From assembly GCF_014805525.1 (NCBI RefSeq), contig NZ_JACFSZ010000002.1, positions 1 to 64,000 of the forward strand: DNA of 64,000 bases. The letters are read 5' to 3'. Below are positions 1 through 7,196 of this stretch, in pieces. The DNA is from Rhabdothermincola sediminis (GTDB lineage Bacteria > Actinomycetota > Acidimicrobiia > Acidimicrobiales > Acidimicrobilacustridaceae). The translations under genes were made by a program, and so were the position numbers. The notes below the pieces were generated by a model. That model searched no databases, had not been told where the DNA came from, and saw only the letters and a list, made by a program, of their open reading frames with translations. Each line of letters begins with the position of its first letter. Position 1 is the stretch's first letter.

Positions 1-17
1 GGCGCTGCGCAGCTTGC

Positions 18-875
18 TCAGCGGATGACGGCCTGCACCTCCACCACCCGCACCGGCACGCTCGACGAACGCTCCAACACCCCCAGATCCCCCGCCTCAC
101 CCGTGCTCGCCACCCAACCCACCGCATAGGTGACCGTCGCCGTCACCACGAACACCCCCGACGGCTCACCCACCGACGACCACACGAACGTGTGCGTGCA
201 CCCACTCACCTGACCCGCCACCGGACGGCTCGGGTCGTACACGGCACCCGGACCATCACAGACCACCCTGGTGCCATCACCCAGATCCCAGCTCACCCGC
301 GTCGGCACCGCCGTCACCGTCGAGCTCACCGCCCCGATCGACGCAGACGCCGACAACCCCACCCACGGGCCGTTCACCCACAACCACGTCGGCACCCCCA
401 CCAACTGGAAACCCGGCGGATTCAACCCGATCTCCGGCACCGGGAGCGGGAGCTGCTCCAACGCCAACTGCGCCGCCCGCTCCGCCGCCGCGACACCCCC
501 CAGCGGATCGGCCGGATCGAACACCACCAACCGGCTGTACACCACGTTGCCGGTCTCATCACGGCACGCCAACAGATACGGCATCCCCCGCTCCGGCTGG
601 ACCGGCCCACCCGAATAATCCACCGCCATGCTCGACCCACTCGACCCCGACAACTCGAAACCGAAATACGAACACACCCACCCGCCACCGCCACCACGAC
701 CAGACCGGAAACGCCCCAACTCCCCCGACGGCCCCACCACCACCACCGCCGTCGGAGAACCAGACGCGATCGACGCGCCTACCGTCACCTGACCATCGGC
801 CGAGTCCGCAATAGCTGGCCGTGTGCCGAACACGCCGACGGCGGCGACAAGAAGAAGCGCCGCAGCTACTCGCAC
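18..875 (-). CDS. Secreted protein with PKD-like region, function unknown
   Basis: About 285 residues with an N-terminal signal peptide: a hydrophobic stretch (AAALLLVAAVGVFG) followed by an A-x-A type site before ADSADG. The mature part has a Gly/Ser-rich segment and, in the C-terminal half, a WDLGDGT motif followed by a HTF strand, typical of PKD-like beta-sandwich domains in actinobacterial secreted proteins. I chose the GTG at 875 because it gives a compact signal peptide and overlaps the stop of the upstream lipoprotein gene (866-868), which implies translational coupling. A TTG at 926 would add 17 residues, but its purine-rich stretch sits too close to the start. The upstream partner is broken by an insertion element, so expression may be reduced by polarity. 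Specific function is unknown. Confidence 0.7.
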   Translation of the reverse strand: MRVAAALLLVAAVGVFGTRPAIADSADGQVTVGASIASGSPTAVVVVGPSGELGRFRSGRGGGGGWVCSYFGFELSGSSGSSMAVDYSGGPVQPERGMPYLLACRDETGNVVYSRLVVFDPADPLGGVAAAERAAQLALEQLPLPVPEIGLNPPGFQLVGVPTWLWVNGPWVGLSASASIGAVSSTVTAVPTRVSWDLGDGTRVVCDGPGAVYDPSRPVAGQVSGCTHTFVWSSVGEPSGVFVVTATVTYAVGWVASTGEAGDLGVLERSSSVPVRVVEVQAVIR

Positions 876-1209
876 TGCGTCACACCATCCCAGCGGGTGA
901 TCTGCTCGACGTCGGTCACGAACCAACCCTCTCCGAGGCGCGCCATCTTGAGTCGGAACAGGAAGGTGCTCACCTTGGAGTTCAACACGAGGCCTGATGG
1001 CTGATCGATCACCATCGTGTCGTCGACGAGACAGTCGAGGACCGTTGCAGCCCCGTGGTCCACTGATTCGAGCTGGGGTGTGCTCAGAAACTGAGAAGCA
1101 CTCGGCAGACGAACAACCTGTTGAAGACGCTGACGCTCCTCGATTCGATTCACGGTGGTCGTGAAGGCCGGTCCAGCCATCACCGACCGCAATGCTGGGT
1201 GGTTGGGAT
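866..1209 (-). pseudogene. 3' part of IS-interrupted lipoprotein gene
   Basis: Encodes the C-terminal part of a small lipoprotein (ending GVTQCE). Read in frame up to the insertion point it begins with PNHPAL, which continues the NDPPDP that ends the other fragment at 2452. Removing the element and one copy of the 4-bp duplication restores a single frame of about 192 residues (1242 bp removed, divisible by three). The join gives DPPDPNHPAL, a motif I recognise from actinobacterial lipoproteins beside PKD-like secreted proteins. A TTG at 1190-1192 could allow translation of this fragment, but it would lack a signal peptide. Confidence 0.8.
1206..1209. repeat. Target site duplication, left copy (GGAT)
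   Basis: GGAT on the + strand directly abuts the left inverted repeat; the same four bases abut the right inverted repeat at 2448-2451. A 4-bp duplication is usual for the IS407 group of the IS3 family. Its position exactly restores the interrupted reading frame. Confidence 0.8.
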
Positions 1210-1234
1210 TGAGCGGGCCCCGATGAGTGGTCCA
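1210..1234. repeat. IS left terminal inverted repeat
   Basis: Starts TGAGCGGGCCCC and contains AGTGGTCCA. It aligns with the reverse complement of 2422-2447 with a few mismatches and small gaps. The similarity continues inward (TATGCGAGTG here against TGTGCGAGTC at the other end). Confidence 0.8.
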
Positions 1235-1238
1235 GCTG

Positions 1239-2066
1239 CTATGCGAGTGCTGGTTGGTGTCGGGTGGTCCAGGCTTGGGCGAACTCGCTGGGGGTGAGGT
1301 CGCCGTGGGCGCTGTGGGGTCGGTTGGTGTTGTAGTCGATCCGCCAGTCCTCGATGAGCACCTGGGCTTCGAGGAGGCTGTCGAAGTGCCAGAGGTTGAG
1401 CAGCTCGTCGCGCAGACGACTGTTGAACGACTCGATCCAGGCGTTCTGCCACGGTGAGCCGGGGTCGATGAAGATGGTGTTCACCCCGTTGAACCGGCAC
1501 CAGTCGGCGACGGCTTGGGCGATGAACTCTCTGCCGTTGTCGAAGCGCAGGTAGACCGGGAAGCCGCGCACGGCGGCGATGGCGTCGAGGGTGGCGACGA
1601 CGCGGTCGGCGTCGATGCGCCGGTCCACGACGATGGCGGGGCACTCCCGGGTGTACTCGTCGACGACGTTGAGCAGCTTGAGGGTGCGGCCGTCGACGGT
1701 GGTGTCGAACTGGAAGTCGAGCGCCCACAGCACGTTCGGCCGGATCGGGCACATAGCACCGACGGCGACGCCGATCCCGCGGTGGGGCTTCTTGCGCTTC
1801 TTGTACGGCACCCGCAGTCCTTCCTCGCGCCACAGGCGCTGCACCCGCTTGTTGTTGATCCGATGACCGCCCCGGCGCAGCTCGCTGGCGGCGCGCCGCC
1901 ACCCCCACCGGGGTCGCCGCTGGGCGAAGTCCCGCAGCCAGGCCCGCAGCCACGCCTCGTCCGCTGCTGGGGCGGGCGGCTCGAGCCGTTGGGTGGAGCG
2001 GTGCTGGCCGACCACCGTGCACGCTCGTCGCTCCGACACCCCGAACCGGTCGCGCAGCATCACCAC
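1239..2066 (-). CDS. IS3-family transposase OrfB (DDE integrase domain)
   Basis: A 275-residue rve-type integrase. The N-terminal part has the HTH_21-like region (RRACTVVGQHRSTQR). The DDE triad is visible as ALDF, RFDNG and WIESF, with the usual GSPWQNAW segment before the Glu. OrfB probably begins by -1 frameshifting from orfA, whose stop is at 2090 in a different frame, giving an OrfAB fusion transposase. The first in-frame ATG at 2066 is used here only as the boundary. No stop or frameshift disrupts the domain. Confidence 0.9.
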   Translation of the reverse strand: MVMLRDRFGVSERRACTVVGQHRSTQRLEPPAPAADEAWLRAWLRDFAQRRPRWGWRRAASELRRGGHRINNKRVQRLWREEGLRVPYKKRKKPHRGIGVAVGAMCPIRPNVLWALDFQFDTTVDGRTLKLLNVVDEYTRECPAIVVDRRIDADRVVATLDAIAAVRGFPVYLRFDNGREFIAQAVADWCRFNGVNTIFIDPGSPWQNAWIESFNSRLRDELLNLWHFDSLLEAQVLIEDWRIDYNTNRPHSAHGDLTPSEFAQAWTTRHQPALA

Positions 2067-2089
2067 CGCGCTGCGCCGCCGGTTCGGGG

Positions 2090-2371
2090 TCAGAAGTTTC
2101 CCTCCGCGATCTCCCGCAGCATCGCCTTGTCCAGCTCGGCCTCGGCGAGCAGCTTCTTCAGCCGGGCGTTCTCACCTTCGAGCTCCTTGAGCCGCTTGGC
2201 GTCGGACGCCTTCATGCCGCCGTACTGCGCCACCCAGCGATGCCAGGTCGACGCCGTGATCTGCAGGTGCCGGCACACCTCATCAAGCTCGGTCCCGCCC
2301 GCGAGCAGCTTGTTGCCCTCGGCGAGCTTGCGGATGATCTGGTCAGGCGTATGCCGCCGTCGCTTGGCCAT
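2090..2371 (-). CDS. IS3-family transposase OrfA (HTH plus leucine zipper)
   Basis: 93 residues from the ATG at 2371, which is preceded by a strong Shine-Dalgarno (GAAGGAGGA). The protein starts MAKRRRHTPDQIIRKL, has a helix-turn-helix (CRHLQITASTWHRW), then a heptad-like coiled coil (LKELEGENARLKKLLAEAEL) and the ending IAEGNF typical of IS407-group OrfA. It binds the element ends and is made alone or fused to OrfB by frameshifting. An upstream in-frame start at 2404 is possible but lacks the good ribosome site. Confidence 0.9.
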   Translation of the reverse strand: MAKRRRHTPDQIIRKLAEGNKLLAGGTELDEVCRHLQITASTWHRWVAQYGGMKASDAKRLKELEGENARLKKLLAEAELDKAMLREIAEGNF

Positions 2372-2421
2372 GTCGTGGTCCTCCTTCGCCCCATCGTGGG
2401 GCATCGGACTCGCACAACAGG

Positions 2422-2447
2422 TGGACCACTACCGGGGGCTCAGCGCA
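2422..2447. repeat. IS right terminal inverted repeat
   Basis: Reverse complement begins TGCGCTGAGCCCCC and contains AGTGGTCCA; partner of 1210-1234. It lies just upstream of orfA, as expected for the left (promoter) end of an IS3-family element in transposase orientation. Confidence 0.8.
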
Positions 2448-2451
2448 GGAT
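2448..2451. repeat. Target site duplication, right copy (GGAT)
   Basis: Same four bases as 1206-1209, directly adjoining the right end of the element. One copy belongs to the original lipoprotein gene. Confidence 0.8.
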
Positions 2452-2686
2452 CTGGTGGGTCGTTCGCTAGGAGAAACGCCTGCCAGTAGCCCTGAACCGA
2501 GGCGAGGATGGCCTCCTCATCAGAGCTGGACTGGGTCGTGGTGCTCGTCGACTCCACCATCGAAGACGGCGGAGGAGCCGGCGACGAGCCCGGCGCCGAC
2601 CCCTCCCCCTCACTCCCGCCACCACACCCGGCGAACACGACACCGAGCACCGAGACGAGCACCAACACACCGAGCACACGGCGCAT
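2452..2686 (-). pseudogene. 5' part of IS-interrupted lipoprotein gene
   Basis: Starts at the ATG at 2686 with a lipoprotein signal peptide (MRRVLGVLVLVSVLGVVFAG followed by CGGG). The lipobox is VFAG-C, followed by a Ser/Pro/Thr-rich linker and EEAILASVQGYWQAF. Coding runs into the insertion element and stops there at 2429-2431. The rest of the gene lies at 866-1209. As it stands, a truncated lipoprotein of about 85 residues would be made. Confidence 0.8.
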
Positions 2687-2828
2687 CGAAGCCCTCCCAG
2701 ATCCGCCCTCGCCGTTGCGGCTCCGGACGCTACGAACGACCAGCACCACCCCTCAAGCGGCATCCGTCACATCGCGGACCCTCCGTAGCCCCCGAACCAC
2801 GATCCGCAACGACAACCCGAACGGCGTT

Positions 2829-3890
2829 TCAGATCACGCTCTCACCCGCCTCGACCCGCGCCCGTAGCATCGACGCCAGCCGGTTCCGGTGGAACACCGT
2901 GTCACCGAAGGCTCGCTCGTCGAGCTGCGACCGCTTCAGGAACAGGTGCACGTCGGACTCCCACGTGAAGCCGATCCCCCCGTGCACCTGCAACGCCGAC
3001 GCGGTCACCCGGCGCGCCGCGTCCGAGCACCAAATCTTGGCCGTCGACGCCGCGATCGATCGCTCGGGGTCGTCCGCGGCCACGCACCATGCCGCCCAGT
3101 ACGCGCTGGAGCGCATCCCCTCCACATCGACGAGCATGTCCGCACACCGGTGCTTGACCGCCTGGAACGATCCGATCGGGCGCCCGAACTGCTCCCGGTC
3201 CTTGGCGTGGGCGACCGCCAGCTCCAGCGAGCGCGACGCGATCCCGAGCAGCTCGGCCGAGTAGGCCGTGGCCCCCAGGTCGCAGAACCGCTCCAGCGCC
3301 TCGACTCCCCCGAGGCGCACCGCGGGCGTGGCCTCGAAGGCCAACCAGCCCACCTCGCGGGTGCGATCCATCGCCGGTTCCACTGCGGGCCGTCCACCGG
3401 CACGCAGATCGACCGCGAACACCGCCTCGTCCGAGCGCACCACCGCCACGTCCGCCGACGGCGCGAACACCGCGGGCTCAGAGCGACCGGTGAGCACCCA
3501 GCCATCACCGGCCTCCTGTGCCGACAAGGGCCCCCAGGCGATGGTGGCGATGGACCGCCCACTCACCAGCGGCTCGACCCACTCCGGTGTGGCTTCCGCC
3601 AGCATCGCCAGAGCGACGATCTGTTGGAGTACCGGCGCGGGCGCCACGTGCGCACCGACCTGCTCGAGCAGCACCGCCACCTCGACGAAGCCGAGCCCGA
3701 GACCCCCGCAGGATTCCGGGAGCGCGATCGCGGTCCAGCCCTGCTCGACCATCGCGGCCCACAGTCTCGGGTCGAACCCGCCACCGGCATCGACCACCGC
3801 CCGGACCTGCGCCGGCGACGCGTAGCCGGCCAGCAGCTCACGAGCCGCGTCGCGCAGGGCGAGCTGGTCGGCAGAGAGGTCGAAGTCCAC
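2829..3890 (-). CDS. Acyl-CoA dehydrogenase, short subunit (ChsE-type partner)
   Basis: 353 residues with the acyl-CoA dehydrogenase fold: N-terminal helical domain (FDLSADQLALRDAAREL), LPESCGGLGLG, and the C-terminal motif QVHGGIGFTWE with DREQFGRPIGSFQAVKH. It lacks the SEPxAGSDLA-type middle-domain motif seen in the neighbouring partner. That difference and the shorter length resemble one subunit of the heteromeric dehydrogenases described for steroid degradation (FadE28/FadE29 type). The GTG at 3890 gives the family's normal N terminus; the frame stays open upstream, but that sequence is unrelated. It is divergent from the gene at 3955, with an operator between them. The substrate is unknown. 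Confidence 0.85.
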   Translation of the reverse strand: MDFDLSADQLALRDAARELLAGYASPAQVRAVVDAGGGFDPRLWAAMVEQGWTAIALPESCGGLGLGFVEVAVLLEQVGAHVAPAPVLQQIVALAMLAEATPEWVEPLVSGRSIATIAWGPLSAQEAGDGWVLTGRSEPAVFAPSADVAVVRSDEAVFAVDLRAGGRPAVEPAMDRTREVGWLAFEATPAVRLGGVEALERFCDLGATAYSAELLGIASRSLELAVAHAKDREQFGRPIGSFQAVKHRCADMLVDVEGMRSSAYWAAWCVAADDPERSIAASTAKIWCSDAARRVTASALQVHGGIGFTWESDVHLFLKRSQLDERAFGDTVFHRNRLASMLRARVEAGESVI

Positions 3891-3904
3891 GGCCAGACCA
3901 TACC

Positions 3905-3918
3905 TGACGTCCGTGTCA
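3905..3918. promoter_or_regulatory. Operator-like palindrome TGACGTCCGTGTCA
   Basis: One of eleven TGAC-N6-GTCA sites in the window. It lies between divergent acyl-CoA dehydrogenase genes, 14 bp above the minus-strand start and 36 bp before the plus-strand ATG. It is preceded by CC, giving CCTGAC as in the extended consensus. Confidence 0.65.
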
Positions 3919-3954
3919 GTCCCCGCGGTGCCGCCGTCTAGGATTGGCCCGCCT

Positions 3955-5154
3955 ATGGACCTCGCTCCCACGCCAGAGCAGCAGGCGTTCCGGGCCGAGT
4001 GCCGGACATGGCTGCAAGCCAACCTCCCTTGGGAGTACGGCAAGGGGCTCCCCCCGCACTTCGACGACCTGGCCGAGGAGGTCACCTTCCTGCGCGGCTG
4101 GCAACGCCGACTCGCCGAGGGCCGATGGGTCGGCGTGACCTGGCCCGAGCGATACGGCGGGCGCGGCGCCGGGCCGCTGCACCACTACATCGTCCAGGAG
4201 GAACTGGCACGGGCCCGCGCCCCCGAGCTGGTGGGGCGCATCGGCGTCAACCTCGTCGGGCCCACCCTGCTGGCCCACGGCACCGCCGCACAGCGAGAAC
4301 GCTGGCTGCCGAAGATCCTCGACGCCTCCGAGCTGTTCTGTCAGCTCTTCAGCGAGCCCGGCGCCGGCAGCGATCTCGCCGCGCTGGCCACCCGGGCCGA
4401 GCGGGTCGAGGGCGGCTGGCGGATCAACGGGCAGAAGGTATGGACCTCCTATGCCCAGTTCGCCGACTGGGGGCTGCTGCTCGCCCGCACCGACCCCACC
4501 GCACCGAAGCACCAGGGCATCTCGGCGTTCGTCATCGACATGCACCAGCCCGGGGTGGAGGTCCGCCCGCTGCGCCAGATCACCGACGAGTACGACTTCA
4601 ACGAGGTCTTCTTCACCGATGCGTTCGTCCCGGAGGAGAACCTGATCGGCGCCGAGAACGAGGGCTGGCGGGTCTCCTCCTCGACGCTCACCCACGAGCG
4701 AGGCACCAACCCGCGCCAGCTCGTCATCCACGCCCAACTGCTGGAGGAGCTGCTACGCCTGGCCCTCGAGCAGGGCCGCTTCGACGACCCTCGCCTCCAG
4801 CAACGCCTGGCCGAGGCCTACGTGGAGGTCAGGCTGTTCCAGCTGCACAACTGGCGGTCCCTGTCCCGTCTCGAGCACGGGCGCGAGCTCGGGCCGGAAG
4901 GCAGTGCGCTGAAGCTGTACTGGAGCGAGATGAGCAAGCGGCTGCACGACACGGCGATGGCGGTGCTCGCCGACGCGGCGCCGCTGTGGTGGGGGGCGTC
5001 GGGCAACCCCGGTGGTGGCCGATGGCAGCGGAGCTGGCTCTACTACCACGCGGCCTCGGTGTTCGCGGGCACGAACGAGATCCAGCGCACCATCATCGGC
5101 GAGCGGGTGCTCGGCCTGCCCCGGGAGCCGAGGCAGGAGACCGCGACCCGATGA
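3955..5154 (+). CDS. Acyl-CoA dehydrogenase, long subunit
   Basis: 399 residues and a full acyl-CoA dehydrogenase: N-terminal domain starting DLAPTPEQQAFRAECRTWL, WPERYGGRGAG, FSEPGAGSDLAALATRAE, GQKVWTSYAQFADWG, and a C-terminal FAD-contact region with GTNEIQRTIIGERVLGLPR. ATG 3955 fits the family start; a GTG at 3913 lies inside the operator and would add unrelated residues. It probably oxidises an acyl-CoA to the enoyl-CoA, with electrons going to ETF (a fused ETF lies at 30803). It is paired divergently with the short subunit at 2829 and overlaps the following hydratase by 4 bp (ATGA), so the two are co-transcribed. Confidence 0.9.
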   Translation: MDLAPTPEQQAFRAECRTWLQANLPWEYGKGLPPHFDDLAEEVTFLRGWQRRLAEGRWVGVTWPERYGGRGAGPLHHYIVQEELARARAPELVGRIGVNLVGPTLLAHGTAAQRERWLPKILDASELFCQLFSEPGAGSDLAALATRAERVEGGWRINGQKVWTSYAQFADWGLLLARTDPTAPKHQGISAFVIDMHQPGVEVRPLRQITDEYDFNEVFFTDAFVPEENLIGAENEGWRVSSSTLTHERGTNPRQLVIHAQLLEELLRLALEQGRFDDPRLQQRLAEAYVEVRLFQLHNWRSLSRLEHGRELGPEGSALKLYWSEMSKRLHDTAMAVLADAAPLWWGASGNPGGGRWQRSWLYYHAASVFAGTNEIQRTIIGERVLGLPREPRQETATR

Positions 5155-5987
5155 GCGAGTTCGAGACCCTGCTGTACGACGTCGACGGCCCGGTGGCCAC
5201 GATCACCCTGAACCGCCCCGACCAGGCCAATGCGCAGTCCACACAGCTGATCAACGAGCTCGACCGCGCCCTCGACGTCGCCGACGCGGACGACGGCGTG
5301 CGGGTGGTGATCCTCGCTGCTGCCGGTAAGCACTTCTCCTCCGGCCACGACCTGAAGGAACTGGTGGGGCCGAGCGCGGATCCCGAGCTGCAGCGCCGCC
5401 GGGCCACCGCCGAAGGCAAGTTCCGCCACGAGCGCCAGATGTACTTCGACCGCTGCGTTCGGCTCTACGAGTTCCGCAAGCCCACCATCGCCGCGGTGCA
5501 GGGACGCTGCATCGCCGCGGGCTTGATGCTGGCCGCGATGTGTGACCTGATCGTCGCCGCCGACGACGCGGTGTTCCAGAACCCCGTCGCCCGCATGAGC
5601 GGCGCGGGGGTGGAGCTGCTGGTGGAGCCGTGGGAGCTGGGCATCCGCAAAGCAAAGGAGTTCCTGCTCACCGGCGACGAGATCGACGCACGCGAAGCCT
5701 GGCGGCTGGGGATGGTGAACCAGGTCGTGCCCCGATCCGAGCTGGCCGCGGCGGCCCGAGCCATGGCCGCCAAGATCGCACTCGTGCCCCCCGTGACCGC
5801 GGAGCGCATCAAGGACTCCATCAACCACACCTTCGAGCTCATGGGCAAGCGCCACTCGTGGAACTTCCACTTCATGGCCCACCACTTCACCCACAACACC
5901 GCGACTGCGCTCGGCAAACTGGCCGAACGCGAGCAGATGGGATCGATGAAGGAGGTCTTCGAGGCTCGCGATCGGGGCGACGCCTAG
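5151..5987 (+). CDS. Enoyl-CoA hydratase/isomerase family protein
   Basis: 278 residues of the crotonase fold. It begins FETLLYDVDGPVATITLNRP, has an oxyanion-hole segment GKHFSSGHDLKEL and a second one, QGRCIAAGLMLAAMCDLIVA. The usual second catalytic Glu region reads MSGAGVELLVEPWELG, so the exact chemistry (hydration, isomerisation or hydrolysis) cannot be assigned. The ATG overlaps the stop of the acyl-CoA dehydrogenase by 4 bp, and the next gene begins directly after its stop. This places it in one operon of dehydrogenase, hydratase, CoA-transferase and lipoprotein. Confidence 0.88.
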   Translation: MSEFETLLYDVDGPVATITLNRPDQANAQSTQLINELDRALDVADADDGVRVVILAAAGKHFSSGHDLKELVGPSADPELQRRRATAEGKFRHERQMYFDRCVRLYEFRKPTIAAVQGRCIAAGLMLAAMCDLIVAADDAVFQNPVARMSGAGVELLVEPWELGIRKAKEFLLTGDEIDAREAWRLGMVNQVVPRSELAAAARAMAAKIALVPPVTAERIKDSINHTFELMGKRHSWNFHFMAHHFTHNTATALGKLAEREQMGSMKEVFEARDRGDA

Positions 5988-7196
5988 ATGGGCGGCCCGC
6001 TCGAAGGGCTGCGGGTCATCGACGTCGGGACCCGCATCTCGGCCCCGTTCTGCGCCGGACTGCTCGGCGAGATGGGCGCCGAGGTGATCAAGGTCGAGCA
6101 GCCCGGCGTCGGCGACTTCATGCGCGAGATCGGCCCCTTCGTGCCCGTCGAGGGCGACGACGGGCCCGGGCACTCCTTGTTCTGGTCGGTGGAGGGGCGG
6201 GGCCGCAAGGGCGTGACCCTGGACCTTCGCAAGCCCGAGGGGCAGGAGCTCTTCCGCCGCCTCTGCCGCCACGCGGACGTGGTGTGCGAGAACTTCCGGC
6301 CGGGGACGATGGAGCGCTGGAACGTCGGCCCGGCCGACCTCGATCCCCGGCTGGTGATGGTGCGCATCTCGGTCTTCGGGCAGGACGGGCCCTCGTCGCT
6401 GCGGCCGGGGCTCGACCGCCTGGGCATCGGCTACGGAGGCCTGCTGCACCTCACCGGCTACCCGGATCGCCCTCCAGTGCGACCGGGGGTGACCGTGAGC
6501 GACTACCTCACCGGGGTGTTCGCGGCCCACGCCGCGCTGGCCGCGCTCTACCGGCGCGACGCGCGCCGCATCGGCGCGGGCGCGGTGGTCGACGCCTGCC
6601 TGTACGGGTCGGTGCTGCGGATCCTGGAGTGGACGATCGCCGGCTACGACCGGCTCGGCATCGTGCGCGAGCGCGAGGGCAACCGGCTGGCCAACTCCGC
6701 CCCGCTGGACAACTACCCCACCGCGGACGGCAAGTACGTGTGCATCGTGGCTGGCTCGGACGCCAATTTCCGCCGGTTGTGCGCGGCCATGGACCGCCCC
6801 GAGCTGGCGACCGACGCCCGGTTCGCCCGCCTGGCGGAGCGGGCGGCGAACGCCGAGGAGATCAACGGGATCGTCGAGGCGTGGACCCGCTCGCTCACCG
6901 CCGCGCAGATCGAGCAGCGCTGCATCGACCACGACGTGCCCGTCGCCACCGCGTACACCGCGGCGGACATCGCCGCCGACCCGCACATGCAGGCCCGCCA
7001 CGACCTGGTCACCGTGGTCGACTCGGTGATCGGCCCGGTACGCCAGCAAGCCCCATTCCCCCGCTTCGTGGGCGAGGAGCTCCCGGCGCCCTCGAGCGCG
7101 CCCCGCCTCGGCGAGCACAACCGCGAGGTATGGCGCGGGCTGGTCGGGCTGAGCGAGGAGGAGTTCGCCTCCGCGGTGGAAGCGGGCATCATCTGA
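5988..7196 (+). CDS. CaiB/BaiF-type (family III) CoA-transferase
   Basis: 402 residues. The N terminus GPLEGLRVIDVGTRISAPF, then GEMGAEVIKVEQPG and FWSVEGRGRKGVTLDLR, are class hallmarks. An Asp in VSDYLTGVFAAH is the likely catalytic aspartate that forms the acyl anhydride. Family III enzymes move CoA between carboxylic acids, here probably activating a pathway acid without ATP. The start ATG follows the hydratase stop with no gap, implying translational coupling. Substrate is not predictable from sequence. Confidence 0.88.
   Translation: MGGPLEGLRVIDVGTRISAPFCAGLLGEMGAEVIKVEQPGVGDFMREIGPFVPVEGDDGPGHSLFWSVEGRGRKGVTLDLRKPEGQELFRRLCRHADVVCENFRPGTMERWNVGPADLDPRLVMVRISVFGQDGPSSLRPGLDRLGIGYGGLLHLTGYPDRPPVRPGVTVSDYLTGVFAAHAALAALYRRDARRIGAGAVVDACLYGSVLRILEWTIAGYDRLGIVREREGNRLANSAPLDNYPTADGKYVCIVAGSDANFRRLCAAMDRPELATDARFARLAERAANAEEINGIVEAWTRSLTAAQIEQRCIDHDVPVATAYTAADIAADPHMQARHDLVTVVDSVIGPVRQQAPFPRFVGEELPAPSSAPRLGEHNREVWRGLVGLSEEEFASAVEAGII

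Follow-up and report, generated by a model that had tools for sequence, protein, structure and literature searches.

How did a lipoprotein gene near the start of a contig of Rhabdothermincola sediminis come to lie in two pieces, and what follows from its interruption? The stretch of DNA analysed, called the window here, covers 64 kb from the start of contig C2 (NZ_JACFSZ010000002.1) in a draft genome of 3.29 Mb and 49 contigs. Taken as a whole, the following explanation is very probable. A gene pair encoding a lipoprotein and a PKD-like secreted protein is present twice, and an IS3-family (IS407-like) element would have transposed into one of the copies, duplicating 4 bp of target. The lipoprotein would be cut between the first and second helix of an NTF2-like domain, leaving no working exported protein from either half, and the function is probably still provided by an intact sister pair on contig C9. 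The transposase would be made from two overlapping frames by −1 frameshifting at G_GGA_AAC, a signal seen in the sequence, aided by a downstream hairpin. Finally, the element is co-oriented with the pair, so that transcription may still reach the PKD-like gene.

An earlier sequence-only reading had the observation right and the interpretation mostly right; the second gene pair and the frameshift signal were missing from it. On our explanation nature has knocked out one partner of a lipoprotein/secreted-protein pair that is widespread and uncharacterised, and the window also brings to light a duplicate whose ends are nearly identical but whose cores differ as much as they do between genera. As an insertion this is routine and of a familiar type. 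More unusual is the duplicate with its mosaic make-up, which most deserves a closer look.

An IS3-family element interrupts the lipoprotein gene

The element and the gene that it divides are laid out as follows.

1210..2447, minus strand: IS3-family insertion sequence, complete, 1,238 bp (ends, target duplication and domain matches)
1206..1209, no strand: target-site duplication GGAT, left copy (read from the sequence)
2448..2451, no strand: target-site duplication GGAT, right copy (read from the sequence)
2090..2371, minus strand: orfA (HTH_Tnp_1), start picked by eye
1239..2066, minus strand: orfB (HTH_21, rve, rve_3; D-D-35-E by eye), from Pfam matches and translation
2452..2686, minus strand: lipoprotein gene, 5' part, with signal peptide, lipobox-like Cys, linker and first helix (78 codons)
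866..1205, minus strand: lipoprotein gene, 3' part, with most of the NTF2-like domain (from a model of the sister copy)

An element at 1210-2447 with terminal repeats, a 4-bp duplication and intact DDE residues had been claimed, and all of these are present. The flanking GGAT copies form a perfect 4-bp repeat, and the element ends in TG...CA with terminal inverted repeats that are imperfect. Its 5' end, TGCGCTGAGCCCCC, recurs in a fragment on contig C4 of the same genome and in an 85%-identical copy in relative G006, which supports the 5' boundary. For orfA we chose the ATG at 2371, which resembles the start of the copy in relative G017; the mechanically listed open reading frame starts at 2404. 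Pfam rve, rve_3, HTH_21 and HTH_Tnp_1 all exceed their cut-offs in the element proteins, and the D-D-35-E residues were counted by eye in the OrfB translation. Against the NCBIfam IS3 transposase model NF033516 (cut-off 160 bits), OrfB scores 225 bits; OrfA alone stays under the cut-off at 47.9 bits.

These sequence features support membership of the IS3 family. The IS407 group within it shares the two overlapping frames with a DDE transposase, the TG...CA ends, the 4-bp target duplication and a length of about 1.2 kb; our element is consistent with that subgroup by its duplication, length and overlapping frames. The portion of PMC3281130 describing four Paracoccus IS407-group elements gives lengths of 1,197-1,269 bp and 4-bp duplications in three of the four. 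Among the matches listed, OrfB is 70-71% identical over 99-100% of its length to IS3-family transposases of Gordonia and Mycobacterium marinum plasmids, a match at the protein level.

When the element and one GGAT were removed by script, 579 nt remained as a single open frame of 192 codons. The claim that the joined flanks and one target copy restore the lipoprotein gene therefore stands; that they join "exactly in frame" says no more than the duplication does, because any single insertion with a target duplication restores the frame. By eye, the N-terminus has a signal peptide and a lipobox-like Cys. The uninterrupted homologues that had been proposed as a check exist: close to its end, contig C9 carries an intact sister gene (64% identity; C9:144648-145220), followed by the beginning of a PKD-like gene, and unsplit matches occur in other genomes. 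Among 60 relatives' genomes, none of the same genus, the lipoprotein has matches in 20, plus the own genome.

A structure model of the sister copy (mean predicted local distance difference test score 87.8) matches NTF2-like folds, ARC6 intermembrane-space domains first (best E 6e-6, template modelling scores 0.51/0.73). Identity to ARC6 and NTF2-like proteins is about 20%, and ours is a bacterial lipoprotein of unknown function. Pfam assigns ARC6-like_IMS to 2 and SnoaL_4 to 1 of 25 family members. The element cuts between helices one and two of the domain, after about residue 80 of 192, so that, judging from the sister-copy model, neither half should yield a working exported protein.

Other copies of the element

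Further copies had also been suggested as a check, and were found as partial copies in the own genome and (nearly) full-length ones in seven relatives. In the own genome the other matches are 682 nt at 93% identity, 112 nt at 96%, 63 nt at 89% and 33 nt, the last possibly due to chance. The element is probably single-copy there, because these matches are partial and because the assembly passes through its 1,238 bp yet broke at the gene-pair repeat described below. Among the 60 relatives, copies of full or nearly full length were seen at the DNA level in G006, G017, G004, G052, G058, G060 and G012; the G004 copy is nearly full-length, 77% identical, and has matching termini with a CCCC repeat at its ends (by eye). 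Of the 298 genomes sampled from the order, 34 encode protein relatives of OrfB at E <= 1e-60, own genome counted.

A probable frameshift signal in the transposase genes

The orfB frame is −1 relative to orfA and is open as far upstream as a slippery site, which is followed by a stable hairpin.

2096..2102, minus strand: slippery heptamer G_GGA_AAC in the orfA frame, just 5' of the orfA stop (read from the sequence)
2038..2090, minus strand: hairpin, likely frameshift-stimulating (folding energy and shuffles)

The full transposase is probably made through −1 ribosomal frameshifting at this site. The hairpin begins 5 nt after the heptamer, its first G-C pair being 6 nt away, within the 4-10 nt spacing rule that the relevant part of PMC4066793 gives for IS3-family hairpins. 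Its folding energy is −43.4 kcal/mol, compared to a mean of −27.8 (standard deviation 3.0) in 200 shuffles, none of which was as stable (z −5.2).

To place the heptamer among related copies, 30 OrfB loci including our own were surveyed; four were dropped (match starts late) and one lay at a contig edge, leaving 25 copies that could be read. GGGAAAC was exactly in place in 7 and GGGAAAA in 5, and one further copy had AAAAAAT one base along. Hairpin conservation was scored on 18 of the 25 copies, selected by eye. The consensus stem has 10 pairs, of which 7 are never broken and 2 are changed on both sides; the inner part of the hairpin is often unpaired. For the 22-pair structure of our own copy, 75.8% of cells pair, compared to 70.5% in shuffles and 32-48% when the structure is slid, and both the covariation score and the number of paired cells exceed 500 of 500 shuffles. 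This is support, not proof, because the rows were selected and the stem also encodes conserved residues.

Well-studied IS3 subgroups are described, in the part of PMC6211511 that treats them, as generally using an A6G/C/A slippery motif, unlike the G_GGA_AAC here. The difference is small, since V_VV.A_AA.R-type heptamers are reported as common in the IS1 and IS3 families in the corresponding part of PMC4066793 and five related copies have GGGAAAA. The term GGGAAAC itself has no mention in the main text of PMC4066793. The GGGAAA(C/A)-plus-hairpin signal of this element family would be easily testable in a reporter.

Points against the explanation, and the age of the insertion

Several observations weigh against the explanation given at the outset. 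No target duplication was seen around the G006 copy (ends read by eye). Twelve of the 25 related copies read have no heptamer of this kind in place, and pairs changed on both sides of the hairpin show no excess, with 8 compared to a shuffle mean of 6.9 (137 of 500 shuffles reach 8). The interrupted lipoprotein tail keeps 26 of 42 conserved positions, compared to 33 of 42 in the sister copy, a weak hint in the sequence that the interrupted copy was less constrained.

The insertion had been called recent-looking, and the sequence is consistent with that: neither lipoprotein half contains a stop or frameshift, and none of 32 matches in other genomes has an internal stop or is split as here (four of these are short N-terminal partials and uninformative). 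The insertion looks young from its sequence, but the 60 relatives, all from outside the genus, give no date for it.

An alternative, which we consider unlikely, is that the insertion is old, the element sitting in a redundant, slowly decaying duplicate that was already drifting. The reduced count of conserved tail positions would fit this, as would the intact sister copy and the poorer match of the interrupted tail to outgroups (135 vs 196 pooled, non-independent sites; p < 0.05 in 2 of 16 single outgroups). Set against it are the absence of stops and frameshifts from both halves, the perfect target duplication with both element ends intact, and the retention of four residues, Cys, Trp, Gly and Cys, that are invariant over 25 aligned rows, one of which is the interrupted tail itself. 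Loss of the window lipoprotein is probably buffered by the intact pair on C9, whose presence makes a strong phenotype less likely.

The downstream PKD-like gene

18..875, minus strand: downstream gene for a secreted PKD-like protein; its GTG start overlaps the lipoprotein stop

The sequence-only reading had noted that the downstream gene overlaps the disrupted one, and it does: its likely start, the GTG at 873-875, and the lipoprotein stop at 866-868 give a 10-nt overlap. We preferred this GTG to the TTG at 926 in the mechanical list. In a survey of 30 lipoprotein loci, two (L026 and L035) had neither gene at E <= 1e-4 and one (L027) was the window itself; the lipoprotein was re-found in 24 of the other 27, and the remaining 3 gave the PKD-like gene only. 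With a single exception (L034), the PKD-like gene was next and in the same direction at the loci with a re-found lipoprotein (23 of 24, own C9 included). Relatives of the PKD-like protein occur in 142 of the 298 sampled genomes of the order, own genome counted. Pfam assigns PKD to 5 and PKD_4 to 2 of 24 family members, and PDB gave no match to the fold at E <= 0.001. In a wider collection of genome contigs the sole match (L098) is weak and lies on a 4.3-kb contig of a Bryobacteraceae metagenome-assembled genome, where a binning error is possible.

Polarity of the insertion on this gene had been proposed. It should not be assumed, because the element has the same orientation as the pair and because outward promoters were found in all tested Paracoccus IS407-group elements, as far as the relevant section of PMC3281130 goes; transcription from the element may thus still reach the PKD-like gene. 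A stronger version, compatible with our explanation, is that a promoter in the element switches the PKD-like gene on or up. The shared orientation and the Paracoccus promoters would favour this, as would the lack of any terminator-like site in 800-3000 by simple patterns; a search of the same interval with a simple sigma-70 pattern gave no promoter-like site either. In addition, translation of the PKD-like gene is probably coupled to the lipoprotein stop, given the overlap, and the insertion disturbs that arrangement. On balance we regard promoter supply as doubtful.

Window neighbours of the pair were not beside it in 23 relative loci, save for weak acyl-CoA-synthetase matches in L032. Adjoining the pair in the window, 2829-7196 carries genes for two acyl-CoA dehydrogenases, an enoyl-CoA hydratase and a family III CoA-transferase.

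A mosaic second copy of the gene pair

The C9 copy was aligned to the window with the element removed (the empty site), over window 1-2811 and C9:144524-145526 (L065). Two stretches stand out.

2511..2807, no strand: repeat block A, 297 bp identical to C9, comprising the upstream region and the lipoprotein 5' part
1..779, no strand: repeat block C, on the partner-gene side; 563-779 matches C9 at 215/217 positions (99%), as far as that contig reaches

Upstream, outside the pair, the two sequences are at background (67/141 identical). Downstream of block A, 2520-2452 is 56/69 identical, the remaining lipoprotein gene 175/344 and the start of the PKD-like gene 41/83, so that the core stands at about 50% DNA identity. 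In protein terms, the window and C9 tails have 45 of 112 residues in common, the same as the window and G013, which belongs to a different genus; the C9 and G013 tails share 49 of 112.

Contigs C3 and C13 both end in the same 127 bases as positions 1-127 of block C, and diverge from each other just beyond. The length of 127 nt looks like the assembler's word length. These joins would be explained by a two-copy pair with entries on C2 and C9 and exits on C3 and C13, whose common end broke the assembly; 128-562 of block C would then also be common to both copies. At the C3 exit, the 17 nt past the partner stop equal the coding end of an acyl-CoA synthetase (AMP-binding) gene whose native place is C13; the C3 copy may therefore derive from the C13 site. 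At C13 (L096 7373-7400, window 1-28) the PKD-like and acyl-CoA synthetase genes are convergent, with a 3' overlap of about 11 nt. Beside the exit on C3 there is, by eye, an apparently broken Calx-beta-like frame.

The simplest reading of the mosaic would be an old duplication in which recombination recently homogenised the ends and left a divergent core; alternatively, one core was replaced by outside DNA. A more far-reaching idea is that the gene pairs form a small variation system, in which recombination at the near-identical ends (upstream and signal region at one end, the PKD-like protein at the other) puts differing NTF2-like lipoprotein cores ahead of an unchanged secreted partner and the insertion knocked out one version. 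Constant ends, a variable core and two loci are shared with partial gene conversion and with cassette-type surface-protein variation. Unlike the latter, only two copies were found here: in the own genome the lipoprotein matches only the window and C9, block A occurs twice, the block C ends fit two copies, and no silent cassette array was found. We judge such a system quite improbable. Misjoining of the element into the gene during assembly is scarcely credible, even in a draft of 49 contigs with a repeat-caused contig end 1.2 kb away, as a misjoin is not expected to give a perfect target duplication and exact element ends, and no second full copy of the element was found in the own genome as a source of confusion.

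Duplicated pairs in related genomes

One blastn comparison covered duplicated pairs from 8 other genomes; another took in 12 sets, together with G287 against itself, and shared G038 and G054 with the first. None of these pairs had near-identical ends around a divergent core. A finer comparison in 100-nt steps (9 pairs of 7 genomes) revealed a milder version of the pattern in some. For the 3' part of the lipoprotein gene and the 5' part of the partner gene, identity in G004 is 44-48%, flanked by 65-73% and 68-78%. The same region is 38-61% identical in G126, compared to 75-85% in the partner gene, and G044 has a dip to 53-63% between stretches of 80-98%. One G211 pair (L159/L160) has 64-78% in the lipoprotein and 83-97% in the partner. 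At this step size no clear dip was seen in G263, G240, G038 or two other G211 pairs.

The same region is least alike in G004, G126 and G044 and in one pair of G211, so faster change of the core, or weaker homogenisation, seems to be at work in several genomes, with our own genome as the extreme case. The milder mosaic pattern was noted in pairs L015/L030, L170/L171, L175/L176 and L159/L160. G211 has at least five copies of the pair (C89, C306, C280, C132, C223) inside longer paralogous segments that are 65-87% alike. In G004, two equal-score lipoprotein matches lie symmetrically and in opposite orientation on the 68,370-bp contig C50 (2445-2900, minus strand; 65471-65926, plus strand), either an inverted duplication or an assembly palindrome.

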